Below, in pieces: positions 4,495 through 30,133 of a DNA stretch of 31,130 nucleotides. The first letter of the stretch is position 1; every line of letters starts with the position of its first letter. A model generated the notes under the pieces. It had not been told where the DNA came from. It saw only the letters and a list, made by a program, of their open reading frames with translations, and did not search any database. Source of the stretch: a virus; IMG/VR virus record IMGVR_UViG_3300017757_000069, positions 1-31,130 of that record. One strand, given 5' to 3'. The position numbers were made by a program, and so were the translations under genes.

Positions 4495-4680
4495 TTACTG
4501 TTCTTTTTTTGTCATTTCAAGAGCTTCGATTCTGCCTTGCTTACAAAGCTTAGCCATGCTAGAAAAATGTTTTCTAACTGTTCGAGCTGCTCTTTTTACG
4601 CCTTTTTCAACCTTATCCTGGTCAGCTTTAATTGCTTCCAAGGTGCGTTCAAGGTTATATACTGTGTCATTAAAAGCCAT
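4495..4680 (-). CDS. Histone-H1-like Hc1-family small DNA-binding protein, copy 1
   Basis: 61 residues. Seen: an N-terminal helix starting MAFNDTVYNL, then KVEKGVKRAARTVRKHF and a second basic helix. Known: this matches, from memory, the N-terminal helical half of chlamydial Hc1 (motif KGNKAAAxRVR near the same position), without its Lys-rich tail. Hc1-like proteins bind and condense DNA. An AAGGAGG overlaps the end of the upstream gene and the ATG sits in a TAATG junction. A second homologue lies at 8306-8587 next to DNA polymerase. A role in nucleoid or replication-fork DNA organisation is inferred. Confidence 0.72.
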   Translation of the reverse strand: MAFNDTVYNLERTLEAIKADQDKVEKGVKRAARTVRKHFSSMAKLCKQGRIEALEMTKKEQ

Positions 4681-5331: not shown

Positions 5332-5920
5332 AGTCTTTTACTCCGAAACTCATGCGTCGGTTTTCAAGCCTACGTTTTCCGAGTGATTGGAGGTGTCTAC
5401 CTCTTTCATTTAGTATGTCTCTTAAACCGTTGCATATTGTTTTCTGTTTTGTCATGTTGTCAAGTGTTGTCATGTATTGTGTCATTTGTTCATTAAATGT
5501 TGTATTTGTTAATAATTTACCGTGGATTTCTTCTTTTGTTATGGATCCCAACCAATTATTTGGAACTTTCTTGTCCAGCTTCATTGCCATGCGTTCATCA
5601 ATTAACATGTGGCGAGCTTGTGTAGATGCTTCAGCTTTCCAAGTATCAAACTCTCTTTGCTTAACTGCAATAGCTGTTTCAAGTTCAGCCGCTGCCGCTA
5701 AGAAAGTAAATCTATAGTATGAGCAATGATCAAGCGCTTTATCCAAATCTTCATCAGTTAGATCATCAAGGTTTTCCGTTTCAAATGATAATAATCCATC
5801 AACTGCTTTCTTAAATACTTTCCCGCCAATAGAGAATTGAATATGAAAGAAAGAAGGATCTATAAATTCATCCTTGTCTCTAACAAGCTTTTTCTTTTGG
5901 TCTTTCATTCCTATTTTCAT
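5318..5920 (-). CDS. Helical protein, possible recombination mediator (UvsY-like role)
   Basis: 200 residues, strongly alpha-helical. Seen: DDLTDEDLDKALDHCSYYRF, an Ala-rich AAAAELETAIAVKQREFDTW helix, then a basic C-terminal helix RDILNERGRHLQSLGKRRLE. Known: helix-rich proteins with a basic 'LR..LN.RGR.LQSL' end occur beside phage recombinase/SSB/polymerase genes and sometimes receive a UvsY-like label; T4 UvsY itself is 137 residues. The ATG overlaps the polymerase stop (TAATG), with GGGG upstream. Mediator function is inferred from context and shape only. Confidence 0.6.
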   Translation of the reverse strand: MKIGMKDQKKKLVRDKDEFIDPSFFHIQFSIGGKVFKKAVDGLLSFETENLDDLTDEDLDKALDHCSYYRFTFLAAAAELETAIAVKQREFDTWKAEASTQARHMLIDERMAMKLDKKVPNNWLGSITKEEIHGKLLTNTTFNEQMTQYMTTLDNMTKQKTICNGLRDILNERGRHLQSLGKRRLENRRMSFGVKDYGSQ

Positions 5921-8343
5921 TAATCATTACCCCAACGGTTGTTATAGATGTCAACATCAGCAACAAGTGGGAATTTGAAACCCTCTACTTGTTCCTCCAT
6001 CTTTAGTTTTATTTCATCAATCAAATGTACTTCACTTTCATGAATCTCAAATACAATAGCATCATGCACTGTAAATAAGAATCTTGATTTATAAGGTAAG
6101 AGAAATTTATGTACTCTTATCAGAGCTAATTGAGTTAAATCTGAGGCTGTACCTTGAATTAAAGCATTTAAGCCCTGTCTTTGAGCTTCAGCTTTTTTCT
6201 CATCAAGGGGGCTTTCTACTTGCGGTAATCTTCTTACCCTACCAAAGCAGCTTTTGATTTTACCAAATTTCAATATATTCCTGCGTGTGTTTGCAATGAA
6301 GCGATTGATTCCAAAGTAATTAGAAAAGAATTTCTCTCTAAACTTTTTAGCTTCAATAAGAGTAATTACTTCTTTCTCTGCTGCTACCCTTTCGTTAATA
6401 CTTGAATGTGCTTTTTGTGGTGTAGCACCATATAAGTAACCAAAGTTTACAAGCTTTGCTGTTTTACGTTCTTCTTTAGTTATTTCTTTTGGATCTTTCA
6501 TAAATATAAAAGAAGCTGTAGCAAGGTGAATATCTTGTTCATTGACATATTGTTCAGTCATTAATTTATCTTTTGAATAAAAAGCCATAACTCTTAATTC
6601 AGCTTGAGAATAATCAATCTCAACAAACTTGTAACCTTTTTCAGGTATAAACATACCTTTAATTCTTGGATCTCTTGGAATATTCTGTATATTAGGACCT
6701 TTAGAAGATACCCTACCCGTAACTGTACCGTGTAAAAGAAAAGACGGGTGTATCCTGTCGTTAGAATCAACTTTAGCAAGCATAGGTTTTAAGTATGTAG
6801 TATTCATTTTCTTCAAACCCCTAAATTCCAGTATCATAGGAATAATAGGAGCCTTTGAACCGAGCTTTTTAATTAACATTTTTAAAGCAAGTTCTGAAGT
6901 ACTTGGCTTTTTTGTAGCTGTTTCTAATAAAACGGGGTATTTCATCTTTTCAAACAATATTTCATTTAATTGTTTTGTAGAACCAATGTTAAACTCTTGA
7001 CCCGCTAGCTCAAAGATTTGCTTTTCAATTTCATCAATCTTTACTTCATTTTCAGCATAGATATTCTCTATATAAGGTACATCAATTTTTACCCCTAACA
7101 ATTCACCTGCCGTATATACCTTTGAAAGAGGCATGTAAAAGTTATAGAATAGTTTTTTGAGTTTACCTTTTAAATCGGGTACAAGTTTTTTAGCTAATCT
7201 ATAAGTGGTTTCACAATCCATAGCACAATAAGGGCCTAATACTTCAACAGGTACATTACCAAAACTCTCTTCATCAAAAGCTTTGATTGATAAAGCTTCC
7301 CTTAAGTATTGGTCATAATTCTTCATTTCAGGGAAATAAAAACCTGCCAATGTTTTTAAACCATGTGGACGGTTTTCATCAAGTATATAATGTAGTAACA
7401 TTGTATCAACAGCAAAGTTTCTAACTTTTATTTCCCATTGGTGTTCAATAAACTTTACATCAAACTTACCATTATGAGCCATTTTTTTAACCGAATTGGT
7501 CATGATTCTTCTTAGGGAATCAATTACGTCTTCTTGATGTTCACCCCAGTAGGGCTCTTTACTAACTGATTTATGCAAAGGTACATAGTACGCTTGACCA
7601 ACTCGATTACAGAATCCTATACCCATAATTACATTATCAAAAAATCTTAAGCCATCTGTTTCGATATCAAAAGAAAAAGCTTTTCTTGAATTCATGTCAT
7701 CTTCAAGGGCTTCCATTTCAGTTGGATCTTCAATAATTATATAATCCCCTTGTGGCTTTTTAATATCAACATTGCCTTCTATAAAACTTTTAAGCAAATT
7801 CAAATCTTGTTTAAACTCAACCTTAAAATTGGGAGAGCGTAAAATATAAGCAGGGTGGAAGATTGGTAATACTTTACCGTAAACCGTTTCACACATAACC
7901 CCTCTAACAGCTGTAATACCACCCTTTACTTTTAATCGGGTACAAGCAGTAGCCCCTAAAGCTACAATAAATCTTGGCTTAATATGTTGAACGATAGCAT
8001 CAAAGTTATCACCACAATGTCTTATTTCAGTTGACGTTGGTTTTCTATCAATAACTTTACCATAAGCATTCATACCCTCTGGTCTACAAGCAACTACATT
8101 TGCAATAGCAAAATTAGTAATTCCAATTTCTTGTAAAGTTTTTTGTAGAAGCTTTCCAGCCCGTCCTTGAAATGCTAAACCCGTTTCTTGTTCAGTTTTA
8201 CCAGGGGCTTCCCCGATAAATAAAACATCTGGTTGGTTTAGATTACCCCAGTAATTATGAGGATGATAGCTTTTTTCGTTGTATAGCTGACATTCACCAC
8301 AATTACTAAGTGGTAGGTTTATCTCTTTTGTAGTCTTTCTCAA
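5920..8343 (-). CDS. polA: Fused uracil-DNA glycosylase (family 4-like) and A-family DNA polymerase
   Basis: 807 residues. N-terminal ~185: CGEC (C15, C18), GEAPGKTEQETG (44-55) with FQGRAGKLL, VACRP (C86), RHC (C110) and FHPAYILR (162-169). This is the layout of 4Fe-4S family-4 uracil-DNA glycosylases with all four cluster cysteines. Then a DEDD 3'-5' exonuclease (FDIETDG at 225-231; HNGKFDVKF; YCAMDCETTYRL). The polymerase palm follows: motif A IDYSQAELR near 576, motif B RKTAKLVNFGYLYGA and motif C TVHD (759-761). No 5'-3' exonuclease domain. The start is TTG with AAAGGG 8 bases upstream, overlapping the Hc1-like gene by 38 bases. It is the phage replicase; the glycosylase module may survey template uracil. 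Confidence 0.95.
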   Translation of the reverse strand: MRKTTKEINLPLSNCGECQLYNEKSYHPHNYWGNLNQPDVLFIGEAPGKTEQETGLAFQGRAGKLLQKTLQEIGITNFAIANVVACRPEGMNAYGKVIDRKPTSTEIRHCGDNFDAIVQHIKPRFIVALGATACTRLKVKGGITAVRGVMCETVYGKVLPIFHPAYILRSPNFKVEFKQDLNLLKSFIEGNVDIKKPQGDYIIIEDPTEMEALEDDMNSRKAFSFDIETDGLRFFDNVIMGIGFCNRVGQAYYVPLHKSVSKEPYWGEHQEDVIDSLRRIMTNSVKKMAHNGKFDVKFIEHQWEIKVRNFAVDTMLLHYILDENRPHGLKTLAGFYFPEMKNYDQYLREALSIKAFDEESFGNVPVEVLGPYCAMDCETTYRLAKKLVPDLKGKLKKLFYNFYMPLSKVYTAGELLGVKIDVPYIENIYAENEVKIDEIEKQIFELAGQEFNIGSTKQLNEILFEKMKYPVLLETATKKPSTSELALKMLIKKLGSKAPIIPMILEFRGLKKMNTTYLKPMLAKVDSNDRIHPSFLLHGTVTGRVSSKGPNIQNIPRDPRIKGMFIPEKGYKFVEIDYSQAELRVMAFYSKDKLMTEQYVNEQDIHLATASFIFMKDPKEITKEERKTAKLVNFGYLYGATPQKAHSSINERVAAEKEVITLIEAKKFREKFFSNYFGINRFIANTRRNILKFGKIKSCFGRVRRLPQVESPLDEKKAEAQRQGLNALIQGTASDLTQLALIRVHKFLLPYKSRFLFTVHDAIVFEIHESEVHLIDEIKLKMEEQVEGFKFPLVADVDIYNNRWGND

Positions 8344-8587: not shown

Positions 8588-9383
8588 AATACTCCGAACT
8601 ATCTAATATAGAATAGCTAATACCTTCAGTAGCCTGTTGCCAAGTTACTCCAACTGATTTATTGTAAATCTCGGAATCGGGTTCGCTTTCCCTAGTTAAA
8701 GCTAGGGCTTTTAAAGATTTAGGAAAAAGTTTCTTTATTTTGGGATGTGGATGGTCGCTGTAAAATGCGGGTATTATTTCGTCCGGTGTCATTAGGTTTT
8801 TTTGTGGTTCGCGGTCTAATATAGTGTTTACTGCTGTTTTGTCTAGTATATAAGATTGAAGGTTATAAGAAAAATAGGGTCTAGTATATTTTTTTGTAAC
8901 CCATTCTTCTGAATCTTTAACTTCATCATAATTATCATAACCTGTATATTTTTTAGGTCTAAGAGGAATCCTGCCCAAATAAAAGATATTAGACTTATCA
9001 AGTTGGTTGAATTCCATAAACTCCATAATTTCTTTACGTAAATCATCTTCCCAATAGACATCATCTTCTAGTATTAAAGCATATTCATATTCCGATTTAG
9101 CAAAAGCTTCCCAACACATATAATGTCCAATACCACAAGCAATTTCCCCTGTTTTAATGGGGTTATGGTATATTCTATTTTTATTCTTAGCATCTACCCA
9201 TTTATCAAATACTTTGTAGCCTTGTGAATCTAAATAGTTTTTTGTTATATAATCTTTATGGATGGCGGGCATGAAGGTAGAATGAGGTAGTAAGCCCGCG
9301 TCATCCAACAAATCAGTTAATCGTTGCTTTCTAACTTTTTCTGAATGTAGACTAACTATGTATATATGTAATTTATTAATCAT
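8577..9383 (-). CDS. Glycosyltransferase family 25 protein
   Basis: 268 residues from ATG 9383, which overlaps the dCMP deaminase stop by 8 bases. Seen: IYIVSLHSEKVRKQRL at the start, GEIACGIGHYMCWE, then YALILEDDVYW with the acidic motif. Known: this order (IYVINL..R..R, GE.GC..SH...W, .LEDD) is the signature of GT25, LPS/galactosyl-type transferases. Phage copies are often suspected of altering virion or host-surface glycans, and in this window DNA glycosylation is also conceivable. It lies between dCMP deaminase and polymerase genes, an odd place for an envelope enzyme. Family confident; acceptor unknown. Confidence 0.82.
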   Translation of the reverse strand: MINKLHIYIVSLHSEKVRKQRLTDLLDDAGLLPHSTFMPAIHKDYITKNYLDSQGYKVFDKWVDAKNKNRIYHNPIKTGEIACGIGHYMCWEAFAKSEYEYALILEDDVYWEDDLRKEIMEFMEFNQLDKSNIFYLGRIPLRPKKYTGYDNYDEVKDSEEWVTKKYTRPYFSYNLQSYILDKTAVNTILDREPQKNLMTPDEIIPAFYSDHPHPKIKKLFPKSLKALALTRESEPDSEIYNKSVGVTWQQATEGISYSILDSSEYYDE

Positions 9384-9801
9384 CAGTACAATGTAAAGGT
9401 ACGCCAATCTCTTTTCTTAGTGCATAATATTCACCAATCATATTACCATACCTTTCCTTATAAAATATTAATGTAACACCTGCAGCTGTTAAAACTTTGT
9501 AACAGTGGATACAAGGTTCATGAGTTACATAAGCAGTAAGTTTATCATATCTTCTTTCCAAATTCAATACAGCTGCTACTTCAGCATGAATTGTTCTAAT
9601 ACAATGGTGGTCAACCACAATGCATCTATCATCCTCACAATGTGGCTGGCCAGGGTTACTACTGTTATAACCCGTAGCTTTAATTCGATTGTTCTTGTCG
9701 ACAATTACGCAACCAACTTTAGCACGGGGGCAAGTACCCCTGGCAGCAGCCAGTTCTGCTATTCCCATAAAATACTTTTCTCTTTTGAGTCTCTTAATCA
9801 T
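9376..9801 (-). CDS. Deoxycytidylate (dCMP) deaminase
   Basis: 141 residues. Seen: the zinc site HAE (H72, E74) and PCIHC (C97, C100), plus the family start FMGIAELAAARGTCPRAKVG and GYNSSNPGQPHCEDD, matching ComEB/T4-CD-type dCMP deaminases. Reaction: dCMP to dUMP with ammonia release, supplying dUMP and lowering dCMP. In this phage it competes with or balances the TS-family enzymes that look dCMP-specific. ATG 9801 is preceded by an in-frame GTG one codon earlier. The T4-type allosteric extras are not obvious at this length. Confidence 0.92.
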   Translation of the reverse strand: MIKRLKREKYFMGIAELAAARGTCPRAKVGCVIVDKNNRIKATGYNSSNPGQPHCEDDRCIVVDHHCIRTIHAEVAAVLNLERRYDKLTAYVTHEPCIHCYKVLTAAGVTLIFYKERYGNMIGEYYALRKEIGVPLHCTDD

Positions 9802-10129: not shown

Positions 10130-11753
10130 TTCTTACCTTCAACTTCATTTTATTTATGTTTTTTACCATTTTCTCTACATCTTCCAGATATTTTACATCT
10201 TCAGTTTCTTTGTAGAGTTTCTTATTTTTAGTTACTTCTTTCTTCATAAAATCAAGATTCATCTTAATAATCAAATCTTTAGCGTATTGTTCTTTATCTT
10301 TAATTCTATCAAGTATTGTTAATCTAGTCGCAAATTGATCATTTCTTGCTAGATCTTGAGCTAATCCGTCTGGTTTATTATTGATTACTTCAAGTACGTT
10401 TGCTCCTAATCTTTTCTTTAAAAAGCCATTTATTGGAACATCTAAATCATCAACTGCATATAATAGCATTAGCTCATCTTCTAATTTTAATTGAGTATTA
10501 TCAATTTTTATATCTTCTGTAAAAGGGGCTTTCTTATATTGAGTAAGCCAATGTTCTAAATGCTTTTCATCATAGCCACTTAATTCACTTAATCTCCTTA
10601 AGTCTTGGCTTAGTTTTAACTTATTACGATGGCCGGATATTCTTTTTAATGTAGACTCTAAACCTTTTTGTTCATGGCAAAATTCAACAAAGCTATAGCC
10701 ATATTTATTATTTAACTTATCCCAATTAAATCGGTGTTTATATCTAGCTAGATCATCGGGGTCTTTACCCTCAACATGGATAATATGCGAATCAATATTC
10801 CTTTCAATTAAAAATTCCCCTACCCGTATAGTAGCGTCAATCCCCGCCTTATCACCATCACTCATAATGGTAGCCTTTTTAACATATTTCTTAAACATGT
10901 TTGCTTGGTCAGGTCCGAAATAACTACCCGAAACTGCAACAGCATTTTGGATACCACGTTGATGTAGTTGTAATACATCAAATTGCCCCTCAGTAATTAC
11001 AATCTCTCTTTGCCTTCTTATCTCTTGAACATTTTGAGCCCAACCATATAATAGCTTTGATTTTTTAAACCAGTCCGTATCTCTTGAATTTAGATATTTA
11101 GGAATTTTATCAGATACACCTAATGTACGACCTGTAAAACCAATAAGCTTTTTCTGGAAAAAGATAGGAAAGATAATTCTGTTTTTAAAGAAGTCCCTAT
11201 AATGACCAGCATCTGTTTTAATAATTAGATTAGCTTTCTCTAATAACTCATTGTCTAAATGCTGATTAGCAAGCCAAGTCCAATTATTTGGTGAATACCC
11301 TAACTGAAACAATTTTGCCGTCTCTTGCGTGATTCTACGGTCTCTTAAAGCCATTCTAGCATTCTCGCTAATTGAATCTTTTTGAAATAGAGTATTAGAA
11401 TAAAGACTTAAAGCAAATTCATTAATCTCAAATACATTACTAAACTCTTTAGCCCTTGCTTTTGGAGCCAAATGGGGTTTACCTATTTTTTCAGCTAATT
11501 GAGCTAAAGCTAATGGATAAGGAATGTCATCATATTTTGATATAAAACTAGCAGCATTACCTGTAGCCCCACACCCCGCACCAAAACATTTAAAAATACC
11601 TATCTTTGGTGATACCACCATTGAAGGGTCACTATCATGATGGAATGGGCATTTAGCTCTATAGTTTTCACCAATAGGTTGTAAGGGTAAATACTCTTTT
11701 ATAACCTCTTCTATTTGAATGTGGCTAAATAGTTCTGTACTTTCTCTGTGCAT
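10101..11753 (-). CDS. dnaG: DnaG-type DNA primase
   Basis: 550 residues from ATG 11753 (a TTG two codons earlier is possible). Seen: zinc-ribbon ligands CPFH (C35, H38) and CFGAGC (C56, C61), with the Dx(S/P)S-type HHDSDPSMVV. Then the DnaG core with the basic KYLNSRDT segment and the TOPRIM motifs TEGQFDVLQL (E255) and SDGDKAG (D299, D301). A helical C-terminal ~200 residues should bind DnaB. Role: RNA primers for lagging-strand synthesis. It pairs with the phage DnaB at 23043-24371. Length and motif order are normal for bacterial-type primase. Confidence 0.94.
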   Translation of the reverse strand: MHRESTELFSHIQIEEVIKEYLPLQPIGENYRAKCPFHHDSDPSMVVSPKIGIFKCFGAGCGATGNAASFISKYDDIPYPLALAQLAEKIGKPHLAPKARAKEFSNVFEINEFALSLYSNTLFQKDSISENARMALRDRRITQETAKLFQLGYSPNNWTWLANQHLDNELLEKANLIIKTDAGHYRDFFKNRIIFPIFFQKKLIGFTGRTLGVSDKIPKYLNSRDTDWFKKSKLLYGWAQNVQEIRRQREIVITEGQFDVLQLHQRGIQNAVAVSGSYFGPDQANMFKKYVKKATIMSDGDKAGIDATIRVGEFLIERNIDSHIIHVEGKDPDDLARYKHRFNWDKLNNKYGYSFVEFCHEQKGLESTLKRISGHRNKLKLSQDLRRLSELSGYDEKHLEHWLTQYKKAPFTEDIKIDNTQLKLEDELMLLYAVDDLDVPINGFLKKRLGANVLEVINNKPDGLAQDLARNDQFATRLTILDRIKDKEQYAKDLIIKMNLDFMKKEVTKNKKLYKETEDVKYLEDVEKMVKNINKMKLKVRNGKSYSSTL

Positions 11754-13970: not shown

Positions 13971-14322
13971 TTTCTTCTCCTTTTGCAGTTATATCATAAT
14001 TAACGTGATCATTTTCATCGCCTGGATCCTGTGGTGATACAAATCTCATTGCGTTTTGTTCATCGTTAGCAACCCCTAAAATAGCATAGCCTGCAATATC
14101 TCTCCAAGGGCTTTCACCGAAAGCACCTTTCTCATTAGCAATCCTAAATAATTTATCTATCACTCTTATAATGGTTAAAAAATCAGTATAGCTACGAGGG
14201 TCAACCCCGCTAGGGTAAAGTATTTCTAGTACTTTTCCTGCCTGACCAAAAGAGTCGCCATAAGCGGCATTCTTTTCTTTAACTAATTTACCTATTTCAT
14301 TTCCTATTTTTTGATAATCCAT
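13963..14322 (-). CDS. MazG-like/all-alpha NTP pyrophosphatase-like protein
   Basis: 119 residues from ATG 14322 (TAATG junction, AGGA upstream); an ATG at 14334 adds four residues. Seen: KLVKEKNAAYGDSF, RVIDKLFRIANEK and ESPWRDIAGYAILG. Known: KN.xYGDS plus R..DK..R and the ...WRDxAGYA.L helix is typical of small phage proteins annotated as MazG-like or DUF1599-like all-alpha pyrophosphatases with acidic Mg-binding helices. It may hydrolyse (d)NTPs to NMPs, which suits a phage that replaces a normal nucleotide by a modified one. Substrate unknown. Confidence 0.68.
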   Translation of the reverse strand: MDYQKIGNEIGKLVKEKNAAYGDSFGQAGKVLEILYPSGVDPRSYTDFLTIIRVIDKLFRIANEKGAFGESPWRDIAGYAILGVANDEQNAMRFVSPQDPGDENDHVNYDITAKGEENE

Positions 14323-15008
14323 TATTGATACCATCCTATATAGCTTATACGTTTATTGGTTACTTCTGGTGCTATGTGAGAAACAAAATGGGGAGCACCT
14401 GTATCATACCCCTCTACGTCCATAACTACATATTGATTAAACGTAGGCATTGTTACACTTAATATGTTATTCCAATTATTGATTTCTGTTCTAAAAAATA
14501 ATCCACCATCTTGAGGTCTCCAATCTTTGGTTAGGTGATATATAAAAGCAACCCGGCCTTGAATACCATCATGGTGAGGACCATTCCAATCACCCGATTC
14601 TAAACAATTAACAAAATTAACCCCTAATTTTAAATCTGTTTTACCCGTAGCTATTTCTAATTCTTTGATAAACTCATCAGATTGGAAATGAGTTACTAAT
14701 ATAGGGTGGAGGTAGTCAGTCCTACTATAATGATAACTAAAATTATGAAGATGAGTTTTTTGAGCATATAATTTCTTTTCTGCATAGTTTTTATCCTCTT
14801 TTTTTACAATAGCCAGTGGATATTCGGGGTTTTTATCAGGAGCTGGAAACTCATCGGGAAATAAATAGATATCCCAGTCATTATAGTCCATATAAAATTG
14901 ATGGAGCATATTTGCTTCTTTTGGGTCTAATAAATTTTTAATAATATCGTATCCCTGATGTTGAAACTTGGTTACTCTAGAGTTATGAGGAGTTATAAGA
15001 TTGTACAC
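14322..15008 (-). CDS. 2-oxoglutarate/Fe(II)-dependent oxygenase (P4H-like)
   Basis: 228 residues from GTG 15008, with GGGGAG just upstream. Seen: metal motif H145-x-D147 in GPHHDGIQG, a DGGLFF strand, distal H211 in HFVSHIAPEV and the 2OG-binding R220 in NKRISYIGW. This is the double-stranded beta-helix order of prolyl-4-hydroxylase-like oxygenases. Products could be hydroxylated protein, sugar or base. Neighbours are a glycosidase-like protein, MazG-like protein and TS-family enzymes, so oxidation of a modified nucleotide or DNA base is a reasonable hypothesis, not shown. The N-terminal ~120 residues match nothing I recognise. Confidence 0.82.
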   Translation of the reverse strand: MYNLITPHNSRVTKFQHQGYDIIKNLLDPKEANMLHQFYMDYNDWDIYLFPDEFPAPDKNPEYPLAIVKKEDKNYAEKKLYAQKTHLHNFSYHYSRTDYLHPILVTHFQSDEFIKELEIATGKTDLKLGVNFVNCLESGDWNGPHHDGIQGRVAFIYHLTKDWRPQDGGLFFRTEINNWNNILSVTMPTFNQYVVMDVEGYDTGAPHFVSHIAPEVTNKRISYIGWYQ

Positions 15009-15982
15009 TTACTCCCCTTAATTATATTGGTTAAATCTTTGTGCCACTGTATATCATTCCACATTCCTTTAAATTGAGGTCCGCAAAAATTACTAGTGCA
15101 TATTGCTTTCCATGCCCCTGTCCTGGCTGCCATATCAACTCCATGTGCACAAGCTTCTTTTACCCAACCCCAGTCTAAACCTTCATAATCTTTATAGTCA
15201 ATCGGTCCCCAGCCTTCACTAGTAATAATAGGTAGTTTAGTAGCAAAAGCTTTATCAGCTGCTTCAGCAATCATTCCATCCAAAGTACCAAGCCAATGGC
15301 TTTCTTCTTTTCTATAAAAATGTTCGGCCTTCTTTAGCTTTTCATATCCATCATTACCAAACTTATTAAAAGAATAATTGAGGTGTTCACTGTCATAAAA
15401 AGTAGAAAGAGCAGCAAACCAAATATTAAAACTAAGCATATCAACATTGCCTGCAGAGTAAGCCGTAAATTGTTGATTAACTGAATAGGTAACGGGTAAC
15501 CCGTGTGTATCAATACTTTCTAAGAGGATATTGATAGGAGTACTTGATTGGTCTTCAGTCCAAGGTGTCCAAATATTTAATGGATACTCATTTGATACAT
15601 CTACATATAGTATAGTATCGTGATAAGCTTTAACGTTATCTAGTACAGTTTGCCAAGCCTTTGCAGCCTGTTGAATTGTGCTAGGTCTAGATCCCCTCCA
15701 CCAAGTTGATAAACCTACCTTTATATCTCTGCCTGTACATTTAGCTAAGAAATCGTGGAGCTTAAAACTTTCCACTAATACGGGCTCGGGTGAACCCCAG
15801 TCATTAGCATCCCAAATAGGTTCAAGAGTTTCAGCTTTAGGGAATAGGCCAGGGTAAGCTTCAATCCTAAGAGCATCATAACCCCTTTCTTGAAGTTCAT
15901 CTAATGCTTTATCCCAATCATCGTATTCTGATCTTTCTAACCAAGAAAAATCCCACATTGCTATTGCATAAGTCTTGTTCAA
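14993..15982 (-). CDS. Cellulase-like clan GH-A glycoside hydrolase
   Basis: 329 residues from TTG 15982, chosen because AAGGAG lies 8 bases upstream and TTGA overlaps the previous stop; a GTG at 15991 is possible. Seen: TIM-barrel-like segments, acid/base YVDVSNEYPL (E132), and nucleophile-type ITSEGWGP (E256), both at beta-strand ends as in GH5-like enzymes. No signal peptide and no tail-fibre features, so it should act in the cytoplasm. A cytosolic glycosidase inside a replication/nucleotide operon is unusual. It might trim or transfer sugars on a nucleotide or DNA. Family by motif only. Confidence 0.7.
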   Translation of the reverse strand: MNKTYAIAMWDFSWLERSEYDDWDKALDELQERGYDALRIEAYPGLFPKAETLEPIWDANDWGSPEPVLVESFKLHDFLAKCTGRDIKVGLSTWWRGSRPSTIQQAAKAWQTVLDNVKAYHDTILYVDVSNEYPLNIWTPWTEDQSSTPINILLESIDTHGLPVTYSVNQQFTAYSAGNVDMLSFNIWFAALSTFYDSEHLNYSFNKFGNDGYEKLKKAEHFYRKEESHWLGTLDGMIAEAADKAFATKLPIITSEGWGPIDYKDYEGLDWGWVKEACAHGVDMAARTGAWKAICTSNFCGPQFKGMWNDIQWHKDLTNIIKGSKCTIL

Positions 15983-16895: not shown

Positions 16896-17327
16896 CTATT
16901 TTTGTTTCAATCCACTACTGCCAAACCCACCATCACCTCGTTGACTCTTTTCAAGTTCATCAACTTCAGCAGCTTGACCTGTCCAAATTTTCATCAAAAT
17001 TAATTGAGCAATCTTTTCACCCGCAGGTATTACAACATCCTCGTCTGAATGGTTAAATAAGTGGACATGTATTTCCCCTCTATAACCTGAATCAATTACT
17101 TCAGCCCCTTTATCTAGTTTAAGCTTTGTAGCTCTACCGGATTTATTGCAAACCATTAAAGCGTAACCGATAGGAAATTCACAAGCCAATCCAAGTCCAG
17201 TCATAGCATCCCCTCGGGCTGGTATAACAACTTCATCAACTGTAAATACATCCATACCCGCATCGCCTTCATTAGCCCGCTGTGGTATTATTGCATGATC
17301 GTATAATTTCTTAAATTTTAATAACAT
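16896..17327 (-). CDS. dut: dUTP diphosphatase (trimeric dUTPase)
   Basis: 143 residues, normal length. All five motifs are present: DAGMDVF, NKSGRATK (usually P-R-S-G-L-A), VIDSGYRGEIHV, GEKIAQLIL and the C-terminal RGDGGFGSSG P-loop-like arm. Converts dUTP to dUMP plus pyrophosphate, keeping uracil out of DNA and feeding dUMP to pyrimidine enzymes. The neighbours upstream (dNMP kinase) and downstream (TS-C) make a nucleotide cassette. The stronger need for uracil exclusion also fits the glycosylase domain on the phage polymerase. Confidence 0.95.
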   Translation of the reverse strand: MLLKFKKLYDHAIIPQRANEGDAGMDVFTVDEVVIPARGDAMTGLGLACEFPIGYALMVCNKSGRATKLKLDKGAEVIDSGYRGEIHVHLFNHSDEDVVIPAGEKIAQLILMKIWTGQAAEVDELEKSQRGDGGFGSSGLKQK

Positions 17328-17560
17328 TAGTTAGGCCCACTTAAAAAGTTTTTCATTCCATTTACTACTCTATCTAGAAACCCGATCTCTTCCATCTTTC
17401 CGCGCCGTTGGGTACGCCCTTCAACCACGCCTGCTTTGAAACCTTGTTTCCAGCCCGTTTTCTTTCCAGCACGGTAAGCTTTATTATAAACAAGTTTGTA
17501 ACCTTGTTCACTTTTGACATCCTTTTTAAGGACCTGCTTTGACTTCGCTGTTCTTGCCAT
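17327..17560 (-). CDS. Small very basic protein, possible DNA binder
   Basis: 77 residues from ATG 17560, which has AAAGGAG 6 bases upstream; the longer frame to 17605 would overlap the kinase and lacks a site. Begins MARTAKSKQVLKKDVKSEQG, then AYRAGKKTGWKQGFKAG and RTQRRGKMEE, with a hydrophobic amphipathic C-terminus (IGFLDRVVNGMKNFLSG). High Lys/Arg content suggests nucleic-acid binding. No recognised family. Its stop abuts the dUTPase start. Confidence 0.7.
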   Translation of the reverse strand: MARTAKSKQVLKKDVKSEQGYKLVYNKAYRAGKKTGWKQGFKAGVVEGRTQRRGKMEEIGFLDRVVNGMKNFLSGPN

Positions 17561-17588: not shown

Positions 17589-18122
17589 TTAAATGGTACT
17601 GGCATATTTTTCTATAATTCCATTAACATTTGAATCACTTGAACGGATTCTTAAACTATTCAAAGTACAATGTTCAGTTTTATATTCCAAATAGCCTTTC
17701 ATGATTTTGGGTACCATTTCTTGTTTTAAGAAGTCTTCACCTCTAATTTCCATTCTCTTGAGTATATCAGCTTCCTCAGCAAATATTTCTAAATATAGAT
17801 GTGGTTCATGTTTAACCCTTGCTTCCAATTCTTTATAGAAAGGATCTTTATAAGGGTTATACCCGCGTAATATTGAACCATAGACTAATTCTGATTGATA
17901 AAACCTATCCATTATCAATGTACCGCCAACAGGCTGTATAGCTTGATAATAAGTTTTTAACATTGTCTTATAGCTTGCCTGTAATTTTGCAAGCTCATCT
18001 TCATTAGAATTAAGTGGTCTATTACCATGTTTTATGTAATAGCAGTTTGGTATTTTTTTGAGTAGCCTTTCAGCCATCCAACCTTTACCACCACAATCAA
18101 CTCCTTCGATTATAATAATCAT
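17589..18122 (-). CDS. Thymidylate-kinase-like deoxynucleoside monophosphate kinase
   Basis: 177 residues. Seen: P-loop EGVDCGGKGWMAERLL (K13), in which the usual GK(S/T) is GKG; LIMDRFYQSELVYG with the DRx catalytic motif; and a lid-like RMEIRGEDFLKQE. This is the TMK/dNMP-kinase layout, converting (d)NMP to (d)NDP. In this cluster it could phosphorylate a modified pyrimidine monophosphate made by the TS-family proteins, as T4 gp1 does for hydroxymethyl-dCMP. That substrate is inferred. GGAGGA precedes the ATG in the end of the small membrane gene. Confidence 0.8.
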   Translation of the reverse strand: MIIIIEGVDCGGKGWMAERLLKKIPNCYYIKHGNRPLNSNEDELAKLQASYKTMLKTYYQAIQPVGGTLIMDRFYQSELVYGSILRGYNPYKDPFYKELEARVKHEPHLYLEIFAEEADILKRMEIRGEDFLKQEMVPKIMKGYLEYKTEHCTLNSLRIRSSDSNVNGIIEKYASTI

Positions 18123-18221
18123 TTATCCTCCTGACACCAGCCATAAAGCTACAGCATGAAATATTATAATTGCTATAGCAATTAGAAACCCAAAGATCAA
18201 ATCTGTTCTATCTTCTTTCAT
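18123..18221 (-). CDS. Tiny single-pass membrane protein (32 aa)
   Basis: Reads MKEDRTDLIFGFLIAIAIII followed by a hydrophobic end and SGG. Its ATGA overlaps the previous stop and its final codons supply the GGAGGA for the kinase gene, leaving no space on either side. One transmembrane helix, short charged N-terminus. Coding is supported by the exact junctions; function unknown. It resembles in size and design the protein at 4976-5074. Confidence 0.58.
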   Translation of the reverse strand: MKEDRTDLIFGFLIAIAIIIFHAVALWLVSGG

Positions 18222-19047: not shown

Positions 19048-19558
19048 TTTTGCCCATAGCCTTTCGCCTGTATTGATAACTGTAAGCCATATCTGGTATA
19101 GGTAAAACCCATAAGATTGGCTGACCTTTTGTTATCTCTGTTGCCTTTCCATTAGTATCTTTTTTAGAATATAAGTAGAGCTTATCAAATCTATTTGGTT
19201 CCGCATTGTCAATAACGTAATCTTCAATATGTGGATCTAGCCCCATAATTAAAAAGCATGTACGAGGAGGTAATTGAAGTTCCAGTCCTAAATCAATCGC
19301 ATATCCATTCTCGTATTCAAAAGATTCTTGTTCTTTAGGGGCTGGGCCTCCTGAGCCTGAAAAGGGTCTAGACTTACCATCTAGTATAATACTGTAGGGT
19401 AAAGAAATTTTAAATCCAAAGGATTGAGCTTTATCAAAAGTAAGACTTGAGTTTTGAGCATTTGCTGAAGGTATAACAAATTCTGCACCCCAGTCTTTCT
19501 GTTTATATTCAATATCTAATTCATAAGCGCCTGTCTGTATATTTCTTCTTACTGCCAT
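19028..19558 (-). CDS. Beta-rich hypothetical protein
   Basis: 176 residues, ATG with GGAGGA 6 bases upstream. Alternating strand-like segments (FGFKISLPYSIIL, GYAIDLGLELQLPPRTCFLI, KGQPILWVLPIPD) resemble all-beta folds. The 'LPPRTCFLIMG ... ITKGQPILWVLPI' order is loosely like dUTPase/dCTP-deaminase relatives, but the catalytic motifs are absent, so no enzymatic role is claimed. The middle has a Gly/Ser/Pro-rich loop. Last residues are basic (YRRKAMGKIGKKQN). Part of the coupled operon. Confidence 0.68.
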   Translation of the reverse strand: MAVRRNIQTGAYELDIEYKQKDWGAEFVIPSANAQNSSLTFDKAQSFGFKISLPYSIILDGKSRPFSGSGGPAPKEQESFEYENGYAIDLGLELQLPPRTCFLIMGLDPHIEDYVIDNAEPNRFDKLYLYSKKDTNGKATEITKGQPILWVLPIPDMAYSYQYRRKAMGKIGKKQN

Positions 19559-20046: not shown

Positions 20047-21454
20047 CTATCATTTCCTTTATCTCAAATTCACTTTCTTTTCTATAAGTCTTTAGTCTTG
20101 CTTTAGAATGTCTTTGTAGCATTCCACCATCTGCATCCATAAAATCAATAATAACTGCTTCTGATTTACCCTCCGATTTACGTAAAGCCCTACCTACTCT
20201 TTGTACTGTTTGTTTATTAGACTTACCTCCGCCTGCCATAATAATTACATCCATTGACGGAATGTTAACTCCTTCATTAACAACTGTACTAATTAAAATC
20301 TTTATCTTCTTATTGCCAAAGTCTTCAAGTATTTGTTTTCTTTCTTCAGCCGGTGTTTGACCTGACATAAATACCGCATCTTCAATCAGATCATTTAATA
20401 AGCCTCCATGTTCAGCAACCCGAGTAACCGTAATCAATACTGACTTATTATCCTTTGCAAAGTTTTCAGCTAATTGAACTATCTTAGCATTGCGTCTTGC
20501 ATTCTTTAAAATATTCTCCTTATAAGCTACTTGCCAATCAGAATATCTTTGTGGTGGGGTTACCTTATACATTTGAATTGAAGGTCTAGTTAATAATCCT
20601 CGCTTGATTAATTCACTACTAGTAACGTGGTCAATTATCCGCCCCGTAGCCCCTTCAAGTAATTCCCTTTCTAATGAACCTGAGTCACCTGGAGTAGCAG
20701 TTAATCCAAATTTGTAATAGCAATCTAACATTGTAGCTATTTTAAAATAGGTATTTTGAATCTTATTCTTTCCTGCTACGTTAATGTGGTGAGCCTCATC
20801 AATACAAAGTACATCAATCTTTTTAAATAAATCTGATAGTTGTGGATCATTCCTTTTAATCTTTGACCATAAGGATTGAACAGTAGCAACAGTAAATAGT
20901 TTGGGGTCAAATACCCCCTCTCCAATCTCTCCTACATATTCCTCCCCTAGAAAACCCCTCATGTCATCAGCAGTTTGTAATAATAGATTAAGTGTGGGTA
21001 CAATAATTAATGAGGGTAAACCTAAGTCTCTTAGTATTGCAGCTGTTACAACCGTTTTACCCGCTCCTGTTGCATGATGTATTATCCCGCGTGAAGATTG
21101 TAAAGACTTGGTTACAGCCCTATCTTGATAGTCCCGTAAGGGTGGAATTGTAGTTGTGGACAACAAAGACATGAGTTGTGGTGTGTCCTTGGGCTTGGTC
21201 CTAATGTCTTTAAAAGATACTTTAATCCCCATATCTTTTAATTTACTTAGGAACTTACCGGTCCACCCTGACGGGAATTTATTATATTTGTAATATGGTA
21301 AAGCAGTAGTCATTTTAGTCCTACGAGGAGGGCGTTGACTAAAGTCTAATCCATAATACTCAAACTCTTTATTGCACCATTTATGGAGCATTTCAGCTTG
21401 TTCAGTTGATTCATTAGTAACTAGTGTATAACTGTTGCCTAAACTAAATTGCAT
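20036..21454 (-). CDS. uvsW: SF2 DNA helicase, UvsW-like
   Basis: 472 residues. Seen: Q-like YQDRAVTKSL, Walker A ATGAGKT (128-134), DEAH (219-222), LTATPG, motif V-type STVVNEGVNIPS and motif VI QRVGRALR. An N-terminal ~95-residue extension precedes the helicase core, as in T4 UvsW, which handles branched DNA, R-loops and replication-to-recombination switching. The ATG overlaps the sigma-factor stop (AAATATGCAATTTAG). UvsW-type role is inferred from the uvsX/gp32/Mre11 context. Confidence 0.88.
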   Translation of the reverse strand: MQFSLGNSYTLVTNESTEQAEMLHKWCNKEFEYYGLDFSQRPPRRTKMTTALPYYKYNKFPSGWTGKFLSKLKDMGIKVSFKDIRTKPKDTPQLMSLLSTTTIPPLRDYQDRAVTKSLQSSRGIIHHATGAGKTVVTAAILRDLGLPSLIIVPTLNLLLQTADDMRGFLGEEYVGEIGEGVFDPKLFTVATVQSLWSKIKRNDPQLSDLFKKIDVLCIDEAHHINVAGKNKIQNTYFKIATMLDCYYKFGLTATPGDSGSLERELLEGATGRIIDHVTSSELIKRGLLTRPSIQMYKVTPPQRYSDWQVAYKENILKNARRNAKIVQLAENFAKDNKSVLITVTRVAEHGGLLNDLIEDAVFMSGQTPAEERKQILEDFGNKKIKILISTVVNEGVNIPSMDVIIMAGGGKSNKQTVQRVGRALRKSEGKSEAVIIDFMDADGGMLQRHSKARLKTYRKESEFEIKEMIDVF

Positions 21455-23043: not shown

Positions 23044-24371
23044 TAAAAGTTCTCCAATCCACCTTCACTTGGTTCAATCTCAAGGGTACTTTCATTAAAT
23101 ATCATTGTAGCTGTACCAGTGGGTCCGTTTGATTGTTTTGCTACAATGATTTCCATTTCATCATTCATTGAATCTTGGAAATAATATTTTTCTCTATATA
23201 GAAGCATTACTAATCGGGCTGCTTCTTCATAGTTACCCGAATCTTTTAAATCTGAAATCTTTGGTCGTTTATCTGATCTACCTTCTACCTGCCTGTTAAT
23301 TTGTACTAGACAGCATATATGACAATCAAACTCTTCAGCCATTCGGGAAATTTCCCCTAGCTTTACTCCAACTGTTTGAGCTTTGTTAGCCGAAACATTT
23401 ACATCAATAAGTTTATCAAACAAGTCAAAGAAGACCACATCAACCTTACTACGTTGAGTAATTTGATAAAGTACACTCCTTACATCAGCAACTGATACTG
23501 ATCTACTAGGTACAATATGGTAGTTATATTCTTCATCAATTTTCTTGTTAGCTTTCTTTATGAGATCAAGTCTATAGTCTCCATCTTTCCAACCCCACGA
23601 TTGAATAATTTCTGACAATGGAATCTTAGTCATAATAGATTCAAGCCTATCTTGTTCTGTCGTAAAGCCTTGCTCAATCCCAAAGTTAACAACCCCTAGC
23701 CCTCGTTCAAGTAAGTTATACATCATATTAGTTTTAACAGATGATTTACCTAAACCTGGTCTTGCAGCCATAATACTAAGATCACCTGGACTTAAACCAT
23801 TAACAATTAATTCATCAAGGTTATCCCAACCAAAGTTAACAACCCGTCTATTCTTTCTTTTAATAAAGTCATCCCGTCTTACATCAGACATATCCCCCGA
23901 GCTAACAACTTGAATAGAACTAGAATAATAAGGGGTAGCTTGCCATAAAGCATCCATTGAATATTTTAAGAAAGAGTCTTGGTCCATTACATCATCGTAA
24001 CCCTTCTTTTGAATTTCATTGGCTACAACAATTAGATTCCTTTTAATTTTCTTGTCTTCAAGTATTGAAGCATAAGTTTCAAATTCAGTATCAGATATTG
24101 AACTTTCAGCTAATTCAGCCAATCTTAAACCACCTCCGATAGCTGAGAGTGTATTCGTGCTCTTAAGCTGCTCGGTAAGAGAAACTAGGCTAACATCCTT
24201 ACCTTTCGTAAATAGAGCCTCCATACCGGCAAATATCAAGCTATTATCCTTCTTGTAGAAGTGATCTGTAGAACAAGAGGACATACCTTTTGATAAACAG
24301 CTTCTACTAAGCATCATTAAACCTAATACAACATTTTCAGCTTCTATATTCTGTGGTAGCTTATCCGCCAC
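23043..24371 (-). CDS. dnaB: Replicative DNA helicase, DnaB-like
   Basis: 442 residues from GTG 24371, with AAGG 9 bases upstream. Seen: N-terminal helical domain beginning LPQNIEAENVVLGLM, linker, and RecA-like ATPase with Walker A ARPGLGKSS (203-211), Walker B VVFFDLFDK (D316) and IEQGFTTEQDRLES. Also SDLKDSGNYEEAARLVMLL and KQSNGPTGTATMIF, the DnaB C-terminal motifs. Hexameric 5'-3' helicase at the fork, partner of the phage primase. The canonical RPSMGKTA P-loop is RPGLGKSS. High confidence. Confidence 0.95.
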   Translation of the reverse strand: MADKLPQNIEAENVVLGLMMLSRSCLSKGMSSCSTDHFYKKDNSLIFAGMEALFTKGKDVSLVSLTEQLKSTNTLSAIGGGLRLAELAESSISDTEFETYASILEDKKIKRNLIVVANEIQKKGYDDVMDQDSFLKYSMDALWQATPYYSSSIQVVSSGDMSDVRRDDFIKRKNRRVVNFGWDNLDELIVNGLSPGDLSIMAARPGLGKSSVKTNMMYNLLERGLGVVNFGIEQGFTTEQDRLESIMTKIPLSEIIQSWGWKDGDYRLDLIKKANKKIDEEYNYHIVPSRSVSVADVRSVLYQITQRSKVDVVFFDLFDKLIDVNVSANKAQTVGVKLGEISRMAEEFDCHICCLVQINRQVEGRSDKRPKISDLKDSGNYEEAARLVMLLYREKYYFQDSMNDEMEIIVAKQSNGPTGTATMIFNESTLEIEPSEGGLENF

Positions 24372-25719: not shown

Positions 25720-26430
25720 TCACTTTATAATATCAACTTTAACGTTTGACGTAGGGGTTGCTTTCTTACGATTCATTACAAACTGATGAATGTTTTGTTC
25801 AACCTGTTTTAATGAGTTGAGTTTATCATCCCAAAATTCCTGCGCTAGAAAATAATCAATAGCCGCAATCCAATCTTTTAAAGGTAATTTGTTTTCTCTA
25901 AGTAGTCTTCCCGCAATAGCCCATTGTTGTCGTCTCCAATCAGCTGTCCGTCCAATTCCATGTTTATCTACAAGCTTATCAGCCAAATGATTTACGAGAT
26001 CCATTTGACCTTTCTTCGCATGCAGCCCAGAAAGTTTTTCTAATACTCTTTTAAACTTAACAGTCACTTTAGTTTTCGCTAGACTATTAGGAGTAATATC
26101 TTTACTATTCTTATAACTATTTATTAAGTAATATATATAATGCTCGTCGCCCCCACTCACTGAGTCTAAATCTCGAACCGTTAAAAGGGCTGTTTCCTTC
26201 ATTAAAACGTCATTTAAACTGTCTAGTTGTAGTTCAAAGAACCCCAGTTCCAACAATTTGACTAAAGCTCTGCCCATCTCGAGATCAGAGAGCTTTAAAA
26301 TGTTCTTTTGTACGTGGTCAATCGGTATATCTTGACGAGCCGACATATATCTTCGGATTGTTAAATAGACTATTATTTCAGTTTTATTTAACTCCCTTGA
26401 TTTCCTAATTATATTTTCATGTACTTTCAT
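25720..26430 (-). CDS. Probable replication initiator/organiser with N-terminal winged helix
   Basis: 236 residues. The N-terminal RELNKTEIIVYLTIRRYMSA resembles the winged-helix start of phage replication proteins, followed by helical DMGRALVKLLELGFF-like repeats and a basic ADWRRQQWAIAGRLLREN region. ATGA overlaps the nucleotidyltransferase-like stop. Its place upstream of the loader and DnaB resembles initiator-loader-helicase modules. The function is inferred from position and fold, without a family match. Confidence 0.58.
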   Translation of the reverse strand: MKVHENIIRKSRELNKTEIIVYLTIRRYMSARQDIPIDHVQKNILKLSDLEMGRALVKLLELGFFELQLDSLNDVLMKETALLTVRDLDSVSGGDEHYIYYLINSYKNSKDITPNSLAKTKVTVKFKRVLEKLSGLHAKKGQMDLVNHLADKLVDKHGIGRTADWRRQQWAIAGRLLRENKLPLKDWIAAIDYFLAQEFWDDKLNSLKQVEQNIHQFVMNRKKATPTSNVKVDIIK

Positions 26431-28255: not shown

Positions 28256-28554
28256 GCGGATTTCAAAAAATGTTAGAACAATTAGAAAAATTACTTGAAG
28301 ATCCAGAGTTTGGATCGGAGAGTGATACTTTAGGGCCACTAAGACTAAAGATCTTAGCAGCAGGACTTCAAGCAGCTGACTTGATGTCTGAACACCCAGA
28401 TTTAGCATCAGCATGTATTCCAATGCTTATTTCACACATGGAAGTATATGCTGAACTGGTAATCATTGCACAAAACCAAAGCGTTAGTATACCTGACGAA
28501 GAGGCTAATTTGTCAATGATAATTAATAACACTACACAGTTGGGAGAAGCATGA
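28252..28554 (+). CDS. Small helical hypothetical protein, TTG start
   Basis: 100 residues. TTG at 28252 overlaps the previous TGA and follows GGGGAG at 4 bases; an ATG six codons later is the alternative. Helical: MLEQLEKLLEDPEFGS, LRLKILAAGLQAADLMSEHP and a hydrophobic helix LASACIPMLISHMEVYAELV. Could be an inhibitor or structural adaptor; no family recognised. Confidence 0.7.
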   Translation: MSGFQKMLEQLEKLLEDPEFGSESDTLGPLRLKILAAGLQAADLMSEHPDLASACIPMLISHMEVYAELVIIAQNQSVSIPDEEANLSMIINNTTQLGEA

Positions 28555-28742
28555 GTAAAGACAGGTGGTTAAACACGCAAGTTTTTGTAGATGAATTTGG
28601 TAGGGATTATAATCTATCCGATGTACCAATGACTTATATGAAAAGGGCACTAGCCTTTGAAAAACGAGGCTATACTAAAAATCAAATAGATGGGCTTTAT
28701 AAAGAAGCCGTCAAAAAACAACAGGAGTTCAATAATGGCTAA
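28551..28742 (+). CDS. Small hypothetical protein
   Basis: 63 residues. Begins MSKDRWLNTQVFVDEFGRDY, then a helical basic end (YKEAVKKQQEFNN). ATGA overlap with the upstream gene and an 8-base overlap with the next; AGGAG for the next gene lies in its last codons. Function unknown. Confidence 0.7.
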   Translation: MSKDRWLNTQVFVDEFGRDYNLSDVPMTYMKRALAFEKRGYTKNQIDGLYKEAVKKQQEFNNG

Positions 28743-29037
28743 TGAAAATCACAATCCACAAAAGCCGTCTGAAGAAGTAATAAATCAGATGGAAGCATTC
28801 AACGGTAATCCCGCAATGAAGGTAACTGAAAGAGTAAACCCAAAAGGGGAATTGCTTGAGAAAGAAGTTGAGATATACCCAAGGGCATCATCTCATGTAG
28901 AGTATACTGTAGATTCAAAAGGGGTTGTAAAACCAACGGTTAAAGTTTATCATGAAAAAGCGGATGAAGCTTTTATAGTTGCAACCAGTCTTATGAAAAA
29001 AGCAATGGCTGAAGCAGATAAACTCAGTAAGAAATAA
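28735..29037 (+). CDS. Small hypothetical protein
   Basis: 100 residues from ATG 28735, which has AGGAG 7 bases upstream; the longer frame from 28690 would overlap and has no site. Begins MANENHNPQKPSEEVINQME, charged, with ERVNPKGELLEKEVEIYPRA strands and a Lys-rich helix end. Looks like a small cytoplasmic accessory. Followed by the structured RNA candidate. No family recognised. Confidence 0.72.
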   Translation: MANENHNPQKPSEEVINQMEAFNGNPAMKVTERVNPKGELLEKEVEIYPRASSHVEYTVDSKGVVKPTVKVYHEKADEAFIVATSLMKKAMAEADKLSKK

Positions 29038-29061
29038 GGATATTTTCTCTTAAATTAAAAA

Positions 29062-29188
29062 GATTCCGATAATGGATTTAAAAGGGGATCTGCAGACTAA
29101 CTTGTAGATTCTAACGAAAGAGAATGGCAGATTAAATGAAAAAGTTAAACTTTGGTTGGCGCTTAAGTAAACTTCTTTTATCGGAATC
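29062..29188 (+). ncRNA. Candidate three-way-junction structured RNA upstream of 29214
   Basis: An exact 11-base inverted repeat, GATTCCGATAA (29062-29072) and TTATCGGAATC (29178-29188), encloses two further helices. Arm 2: ATTTA (29076-80) with TAAAT (29133-37) and ATCTGC (29088-93) with GCAGAT (29127-32), leaving an AAAGGGG bulge and an inner ATTCT/AGAAT hairpin (29108-12/29121-25). Arm 3: AAGTT (29142-46) with AACTT (29170-74) around ACTT/AAGT (29149-52/29165-68). This is a complete three-way junction. It lies in the 176-base gap between 29037 and 29214, whose rest has only the TAGGATAAATAG before the next ATG. It could be a stable RNA, 5' leader switch, processing site or DNA element. Confidence 0.55.
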
Positions 29189-29213
29189 AAAACTTTTAAC
29201 GTAGGATAAATAG

Positions 29214-29663
29214 ATGGCAATTTACATAGATTCAGGTGATAATAGAGATTACACGGCTAATACTATTAATAACCATTTTCTTAGAATACCTAATATTGTA
29301 TATACTAATACTGCTACTGGTAATCAAAAGAATTGGCCAGGCAAAATTGCGGGAATCAATGTTGCAACGGTTGGAATTGCTTCTTTTACTACTACTTTCT
29401 ATCATGCTACTGAAGCCCCTAAAATAAAAAAGGATAGTTCTTCAGGTGGCGGTTTTAACACGGGATCGGCAAGTAATGGGTCTTATGGTTTGACCTTAAG
29501 TGATACAGGCGAAAGTCATTTTGCTAAACATGCTACTGTACCAGGGCATTGGTTTCAAGCGGGTAATCTAGCTTTTGGTTCTAGTGGTAACACTGTTCAT
29601 TATAGAGTAGAACATTCAGTAGATAATTCACAACCCCAAAGTACTTTTTGGCTAGACGCATAA
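29214..29663 (+). CDS. Gly/Ser/Thr-rich beta protein, possibly virion-associated
   Basis: 149 residues. Rich in Gly/Ser/Asn/Thr, with SSSGGGFNTGSASNGSYGLT in the middle and strand-like IAGINVATVGIASFTTTFYH. Composition resembles phage decoration or fibre-like proteins but no domain is recognised. AGGA lies 8 bases before the ATG, and the structured RNA candidate immediately upstream may control it. The end overlaps the resolvase TTG by 16 bases. Confidence 0.65.
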   Translation: MAIYIDSGDNRDYTANTINNHFLRIPNIVYTNTATGNQKNWPGKIAGINVATVGIASFTTTFYHATEAPKIKKDSSSGGGFNTGSASNGSYGLTLSDTGESHFAKHATVPGHWFQAGNLAFGSSGNTVHYRVEHSVDNSQPQSTFWLDA

Positions 29664-30133
29664 CCTACGGAATAGATCCGGGAACAACACAATCGGCATT
29701 AGTAGGCATTGATGAGGACTACAAGGTGGTTTATATAAAGTACGCCGGGAACCTTGAAATTGAACAGGCTTTAGAATCATTTAATCCTAAAGATACACTA
29801 TCCATAGAATTTGTACAGTCTTATGGAATGGCTGTAGGGCAAACAACCTTTTTAACTGTTAGAGCAGTTGGCAGGTTTGAGAAAGCCTTTGGAGATGATG
29901 CTAATATTTATTTGTACACTAGGCCCACTATACTTAGCCACATTACGGGTGGTATAAGGGGCAAAAAGAAAACACAAGTTATTCAATCGCTCAAGCTAAG
30001 GTTTGGCGAATCAAAGAAAGGGCAACCCTTGGAGGGGATTAGTAATCACTTATGGGATGCACTTGCCGTAGCAGTCTATCACCAAGATGGTAAACCATTA
30101 GGGCATGTAGATTGGGCAGCGATTAATAGATGA
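29648..30133 (+). CDS. RuvC-like Holliday-junction resolvase
   Basis: 161 residues from TTG 29648; no ATG is available in the frame and no clear ribosome binding site, so coupling to the upstream gene is likely. Seen: GIDPGTTQSA (D10), LSIEFVQSYGM (E54), a basic KKKTQVIQSL segment and NHLWDALAVAVY (D137), the RuvC acidic triad/tetrad with RNase H fold. Resolves branched recombination DNA before packaging, complementing UvsX, UvsW and Mre11 in the leftward block. Confidence 0.85.
   Translation: MARRITYGIDPGTTQSALVGIDEDYKVVYIKYAGNLEIEQALESFNPKDTLSIEFVQSYGMAVGQTTFLTVRAVGRFEKAFGDDANIYLYTRPTILSHITGGIRGKKKTQVIQSLKLRFGESKKGQPLEGISNHLWDALAVAVYHQDGKPLGHVDWAAINR

Follow-up and report, generated by a model that had tools for sequence, protein, structure and literature searches.

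The early RNase III sites of phage T7 are structured gaps between the genes of a phage operon, a description that also applies to the RNA reported here. To our knowledge, T7-type sites have no conserved loop sequence common to unrelated phages. In phage HK022, the two stem-loops of put RNA bind RNA polymerase and suppress termination. HK022 putRNA is a structure in a phage operon that would work whichever gene comes after it (PMC9378689). It is about 70 nt long, with two stem-loops near early promoters, whereas the RNA at our locus has a different fold, a three-way junction, and often lies near the operon end. The phi29 pRNA (Phage_pRNA), which is said to be confined to phi29-like Bacillus phages (PMC11476376), is likewise phage-encoded, about 120 nt long and folded into a three-way junction whose ends form the closing helix, but the RNA here lies inside an operon and has neither a covariance-model match nor significant loop-loop pairing. 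GOLLD and ROOL are orphan structured RNAs of phages and prophages (PMC12286853); they are much longer, with many GOLLD RNAs above 800 nt, are often found near tRNA islands, and have Rfam models, none of which matches the RNA here. Marine phages carry the structured RNAs manA and wcaG (PMC2864571), known families that also have no match here, and the wcaG family is reported to regulate types of gene that recur, which is not the case for our RNA.

The locus lies in a rightward operon of the window, the 31,130-nt stretch of viral DNA analysed here (IMG/VR record IMGVR_UViG_3300017757_000069), and its features are collected in Table 1. Together with its counterparts in other phages, the RNA forms a previously undescribed family whose members are about 130-170 nt long. 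The initial annotation had placed it in a 176-base non-coding gap of an otherwise gapless genome. That gap is present between two genes on the same strand, and the description of the genome is roughly right, except that the window has further gaps of 71-158 bases. The best closing helix in the other gaps scored 18.5, compared with 26 for the gap holding the RNA. For the 99-aa and Gly-rich proteins encoded on either side, we found no relatives besides those in contigs L002 and L003. Elsewhere in the window, a DNA polymerase A is fused to an N-terminal uracil-DNA-glycosylase-family domain.

Table 1. Positions of the RNA, its neighbouring genes and other elements in the window and in related phage contigs.
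Feature	Source	Position	Strand	Remarks
Gap holding the RNA	Window	29038-29213	+	Bounded by stop of 99-aa gene (29035-29037) and start of Gly-rich gene (29214)
P1 5' arm, closing helix, GATTCCGATAA	Window	29062-29072	+	Pair probability 0.94-1.0; covaries in L002, L003, L016, L051
P1 3' arm, closing helix, TTATCGGAATC	Window	29178-29188	+	From pair probability; covaries in the same four relatives
UAAAAGG	Window	29079-29085	+	Common to 5' arms of L016 and L051; AAAGG in L002; by eye
5' arm hairpin GGGAUCUGCAG-ACUAAC-UUGUAGAUUCU	Window	29085-29112	+	Pair probability 0.70-0.98
P3, 3' arm (outer AAGUU/AACUU, inner ACUU.GG/CU.AAGU)	Window	29141-29174	+	Stem kept via both-side changes in L002, L003, L016, L051
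P3 outer strands AAGUU / AACUU	Window	29141-29145 / 29170-29174
P3 inner hairpin	Window	29149-29168
Most conserved segment TTGGYTGGCRCT	Window	29152-29163	+	P3 inner stem GG/CU around hexaloop YUGGCR
Upstream gene, 99 aa	Window	28738-29037	+	No PHROG match; 70% identity to L003 copy
Gly-rich protein gene	Window	29214-29663	+	Rapidly evolving (L002/L003 copies 33% identical); matches neither Pfam nor PHROG
RuvC-like Holliday-junction resolvase gene	Window	29648-30133	+	PHROG 1770; 86% identity in L002/L003
DNA polymerase A fusion gene	Window	5920-8343
RNA-bearing gap	L003	4379-4528
RNA-bearing gap	L002	4366-4518
Second three-way-junction element	L078 (G003)	3865-4007 (G003 23865-24007)
Second three-way-junction element	G004 (L051)	15680-15825 (L051 about 3434-3579)
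73-nt element, TGTGGTGCTTG/CAAGCACCACA	L003	2723-2795
73-nt element	L002	2910-2982
Stem-closed elements	G001	14831-14903, 19137-19202, 26013-26092, 28442-28533, 35100-35163		Reversed orientation
Stem-closed elements	G003	17282-17348, 18025-18128
Stem-closed elements	G004	9095-9202, 9557-9727, 10623-10711, 13995-14064
ThiF/E1-like and JAB-like protein genes	L016 (G003)	1435-4634
ThiF/E1-like and JAB-like protein genes	L051 (G004)	9-3422
YGHWYYF protein gene	L003	3644-3850
YGHWYYF protein gene	G004	20877-21065
YGHWYYF protein gene	G003	28832-29047
Near-identical proteins at both contig ends	G006	2-1790, 40517-42572

The perfect 11-base closing helix (P1) of the initial annotation is present and encloses a 127-base domain. 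Its score was matched by 2 of 300 dinucleotide shuffles of the gap, and the 127-mer has a folding z of -3.6, with none of 200 shuffles equally stable; these window-only statistics of stability and helix, taken alone, are suggestive only. As to the two inner arms also described, the 3' arm (P3) is conserved in relatives, whereas the other, likely ATCTGC/GCAGAT (29088-29093/29127-29132), has a pair probability of ~0.02, that is, ~2% of the ensemble. We judged this arm to be wrong because of that value and because the hairpin at 29085-29112 occupies its place. The letters of that hairpin are not kept in relatives, which have a longer branched arm instead. P3 is energetically weak in the window (pair probabilities 0.17-0.19 for the inner pairs and about 0 for the outer ones), and its segment TTGGYTGGCRCT is identical or Y/R-variant in L002, L003, L016, L051 and the L017 group.

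L002 and L003 are IMG/VR contigs that were reached via the RuvC-like gene and have the gene order of the window. In the gap between the same two genes they carry a closing helix of other sequence: P1 is TAAGCCTAACAGTAAA/TTTATTGTTAGGCTTA in L003 and AAGCCTGACAATA/TATTGTTGGGCTT in L002, and both pair despite letters that differ from those of the window. IMG/VR was then scanned for the P3 hairpin features (UUGG[YUGGCR]CUAA on an AAAG/CUUU stem) with the pattern AAAAN{3,16}TTGGYTGGCRCTN{1,6}AACTT and a looser form. While most matches fell in coding frames, as chance predicts, those in L016 and L051 did not, and these two contigs belong to a phage lineage other than that of the window, L002 and L003. 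Their P1 helices, of 14 bp in L016 (5' arm TTATATTCCCTTCA) and 19 bp in L051 (5' arm TTGATATATTCCCTTTTTA), close directly on the P3 hairpin, and in all five members the 3' partner of P1 starts 0-3 bases past the matched ACTT of P3. The other matches (L018, L019, L022, L029, L030 and L032-L060, the last range excluding L051 and the L017 group) were attributed to chance, being mostly in coding frames or without P1. A pattern scan of the genome collection gave six matches, none with a supported closing helix; an exact search of IMG/VR with the window's own P1 gave no match, and BLAST of the elements against annotated phages returned nothing relevant.

If membership requires a P1 of 11 bp or more that encloses P2 and P3, and the motif UUGGYUGGCRCU in P3, the family comprises five members from two lineages (the window, L002, L003, L016 and L051); these and the L017 group all come from metagenomic contigs. 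In the L017 group (L017, L023, L025-L027, L031, L038, L045 and L048), the P3 hairpin lies in an intergenic gap directly 3' of a gene homologous to the L051 resolvase, with a 9-bp closing helix (TTTAGCGGG/CCCGCTAAA) and P3 on its 5' side. This group may be a variant of the family or an independent use of P3.

The initial annotation had left the structure to be judged by covariation among relatives, and compensatory changes do exist there. In a helix-only alignment of P1 and P3 from the five members, which was extracted by hand and thus leans towards structure, 98% of cells were paired, 13 of the 20 pairs had changed on both sides, and the covariation score was 0.855 compared with 0.265 for shuffled alignments (reached by 0 of 500 shuffles); sliding the partner by one base lowered pairing to 55-62%. 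P1 is an exact or near-exact helix within each individual sequence. Unconstrained folding recovered P1, P2 and P3 in L002, L003 and L051, and P1 in L016 as well. A MAFFT alignment of the five whole elements misaligned P1, and the pair counts therefore come from the helix-only alignment. In a descriptor scan of 0.9 Mb allowing up to two motif mismatches, the five members scored 37-52 and the best block-shuffle score was 27.5; two matches in L056 (38 and 50.5, with two motif mismatches) were put down to GC-rich composition. The 5' arm between P1 and P3, here called P2, is variable, being long in L002 and L003. In L051 it forms a AUUAAUGU/ACAUUAAU helix enclosing smaller hairpins, one of which is closed by GGCU/AGUC and has the loop UAAAAGG; by eye, UAAAAGG also lies in a loop in L016, on a GCAGU/ACUGC stem.

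The changes also identify the strand. Three pairs of P1 differ from L003 to L002 (T-A to T-G, A-T to G-T, and G-T to A-T), and these changes retain pairing on the + strand only. The constant G.U of P3 and the wobbles of L051 likewise fit the + strand, which is the sense of the flanking genes. Since the wobbles are G.U only on that strand, the structure is a sense-strand RNA and not a DNA cruciform. Taken together, the results demonstrate that the folded RNA at 29062-29188 is real and belongs to the sense strand.

This RNA belongs to none of the families searched, in line with the initial annotation of a branched RNA outside known families. Rfam 15 at the gathering threshold gave no match in the window and about 99 kb of relatives, and a permissive threshold gave no match of interest. 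ARAGORN detected neither tRNAs nor tmRNAs in the window or in genomes G001, G003 and G004. A known terminator or a protein-coding remnant had been named as what would undo the proposal, and neither applies: on its + strand the gap lacks the GC-rich stem with short loop and U run that would make an intrinsic terminator, and the coding alternative is considered below. We take the sequence GYUGGCRC to be complementary to the conserved 16S segment GUGCCAGC; this lead was dropped, since chance alone should give about one match of this kind in the rRNAs.

Exact copies of the motif occurred once per genome in all seven genomes tested, with an extra one-mismatch site in G001. As the next gene after the RNA, the window, L002 and L003 have that of the Gly-rich protein, L051 has one for a 119-aa protein that matches no PHROG, and L016 has one for a 197-aa protein. 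Although the genomes G003 (L016) and G004 (L051) are syntenic, their RNAs lie about 4 kb apart: in G003 the RNA follows a ThiF-like gene and precedes gene 24243, and in G004 it is followed by the homologue of G003 gene 28358. Because the downstream genes are unrelated and the place has shifted between syntenic phages, the RNA is probably not a leader dedicated to one gene. It fills the stop-to-start space in the window, L002 and L003. In L051 the upstream gene's stop codon lies inside the P1 5' arm, and about 10 nt separate the end of the P1 3' arm from the following start; in the L017 group a stop codon lies inside the 9-bp closing helix. No promoter or terminator of its own was evident for the RNA. 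Given the tight fit between stop and start and the stop codon in P1, a gene with its own promoter is unlikely, so that release from the mRNA would be needed.

Several genes in these phages are of separate interest. G003 and G004 encode ThiF/E1-like (PF00899) and JAB-like (PF14464) proteins, the Pfam matches having been made with the G004 copies, and G003 also has a protein of 75 aa with a terminal GG, ubiquitin-like when judged by eye; the three could possibly be a phage ubiquitin-like conjugation set. A small YGHWYYF protein, whose L003 copy has no Pfam match, is common to otherwise unrelated groups carrying the RNA. Both ends of the G006 contig encode near-identical proteins, and the contig may be terminally redundant, circular, or contain a duplication.

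We propose, with a probability of about 0.4, that the RNA domain is cut from the operon mRNA and acts in trans through P3, in keeping with the processed small RNA among the roles suggested in the initial annotation. It would be transcribed along with the operon and set free by cuts around P1, which would keep the domain folded apart from the mRNA, and the partner of P3 would be a protein or another RNA. Against this reading, neither a conserved loop-loop contact nor a target was found. We favour this trans-acting RNA over a cis-acting mRNA element, an alternative that is quite possible, if improbable on balance. As a cis element, the intergenic structure would be a site of cleavage or binding for RNase III or some other factor and would set the stability or translation of the adjacent segments, with P3 as the binding site and the T7 early RNase III sites as the model. 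The RNA is always co-directional with its flanking genes, P1 is a long perfect helix (11-19 bp), and the element is tightly fitted between the stop and the next ribosome-binding site in the window, L002, L003, L051 and the L017 group; this fit and the stop codon within the L051 P1 suit a cis element equally well. Related phages also have further stem-closed elements before starts (G004 10623-10711 and 13995-14064; G001 26013-26092), which may point to one general cis function. On the other hand, P3 is conserved in sequence across unrelated phages and is absent from those other elements, there is a single copy per genome, the downstream genes are unrelated, and in L016 some 90 nt, which include another hairpin, separate the RNA from the gene that follows.

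A leader regulating a single downstream gene, riboswitch-like or through autoregulation by the Gly-rich protein, is unlikely. In the window, L002 and L003 the RNA does sit directly before the Gly-rich gene, for which the initial annotation had suggested such a regulator, and for L002 and L003 folding also predicts that the region of the ribosome-binding site pairs with that of the upstream stop. That extra pairing, however, is AU-rich and unchanged between L002 and L003, and thus has no covariation support, and the suggestion is weakened by relatives (L016, L051 and the L017 group) with the RNA before unrelated genes and by its shifted position in syntenic phages. More doubtful still is the idea that the branched RNA mimics branched DNA and controls Holliday-junction resolvases, such that a resolvase would bind the RNA junction and in this way hold back its own production or activity until DNA junctions of the phage have built up. 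The association was noticed post hoc: the RuvC-like gene lies one gene after the RNA in the window, L002 and L003, and a protein matching the RusA-like PHROG 244 is encoded just before the RNA in G004, as is its homologue in G006, but in G003 the resolvase is about 3.5 kb away.

The initial annotation had also considered a replication or packaging DNA element. An origin, cruciform, recombination site or transposon end would account for a movable inverted repeat present once per genome in a replication/recombination region. We consider this very improbable, since every wobble is G.U on the sense strand and the P1 letters differ between lineages, unlike transposon ends, and the ordinary large terminases of the relatives weaken the packaging role further. 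An integron attC site was rejected, as integron-like GCCTAAC/GTTAGGC is present in L003 only and is broken in L002. It is scarcely credible that the gap holds a short coding sequence instead: TTGGYTGGCRCT reads WLAL in one frame, in which both variable sites are synonymous, but no ATG, GTG or TTG start precedes W-L-A-L in the window or the L017 group, the indels between AAAG and TTGG are not multiples of three and are matched across the helix (L002 compared with L051), the L017 group has a 1-base indel, and P1 covaries; the peptide was rejected for its startless frame and for indels not in threes. A packaging RNA like phi29 pRNA, in which loop-loop pairing joins an RNA ring, is just as hard to credit, for although the size is similar, the junction is closed by the 5' and 3' ends, and CCAA x UUGG loop complementarity is possible in L002, L016 and L051 (as AACCAA x UUGGUU in L002 and L016), the complementarity over the five members is not significantly above that in shuffles (Fisher p = 0.14), Rfam gave no match, both G003 and G006 encode a large terminase of the ordinary kind (PHROG 38; the window's own lies outside the contig), and the window polymerase is of family A, not protein-primed.

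Many gaps in the related phages hold elements closed by helices of 9-20 bp, several of them directly before start codons, and none of those listed for G001, G003 and G004 is a tRNA. A 73-nt element lies between the divergent operons of L002 and L003 and is missing from the window. A second, independent and conserved three-way junction was found in G003 and G004, with a P1 of 20-22 bp and a P2 of ATCCAC/GTGGAT with TTACGAACAAT; its P3 differs in a compensatory way between the two genomes (TTGAACA/TGTTCAA versus ATTAAACA/TGTTTAAT), and it has no Rfam match.

The family described here, with its sequence-conserved hairpin, joins the few known structured phage RNAs, is common to otherwise unrelated phage groups, and is experimentally tractable. 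Since these phages also hold further stem-closed elements in early operons, including at least one independent three-way junction with a compensatory helix, the results suggest a layer of RNA in these phages that gene callers and Rfam have missed.
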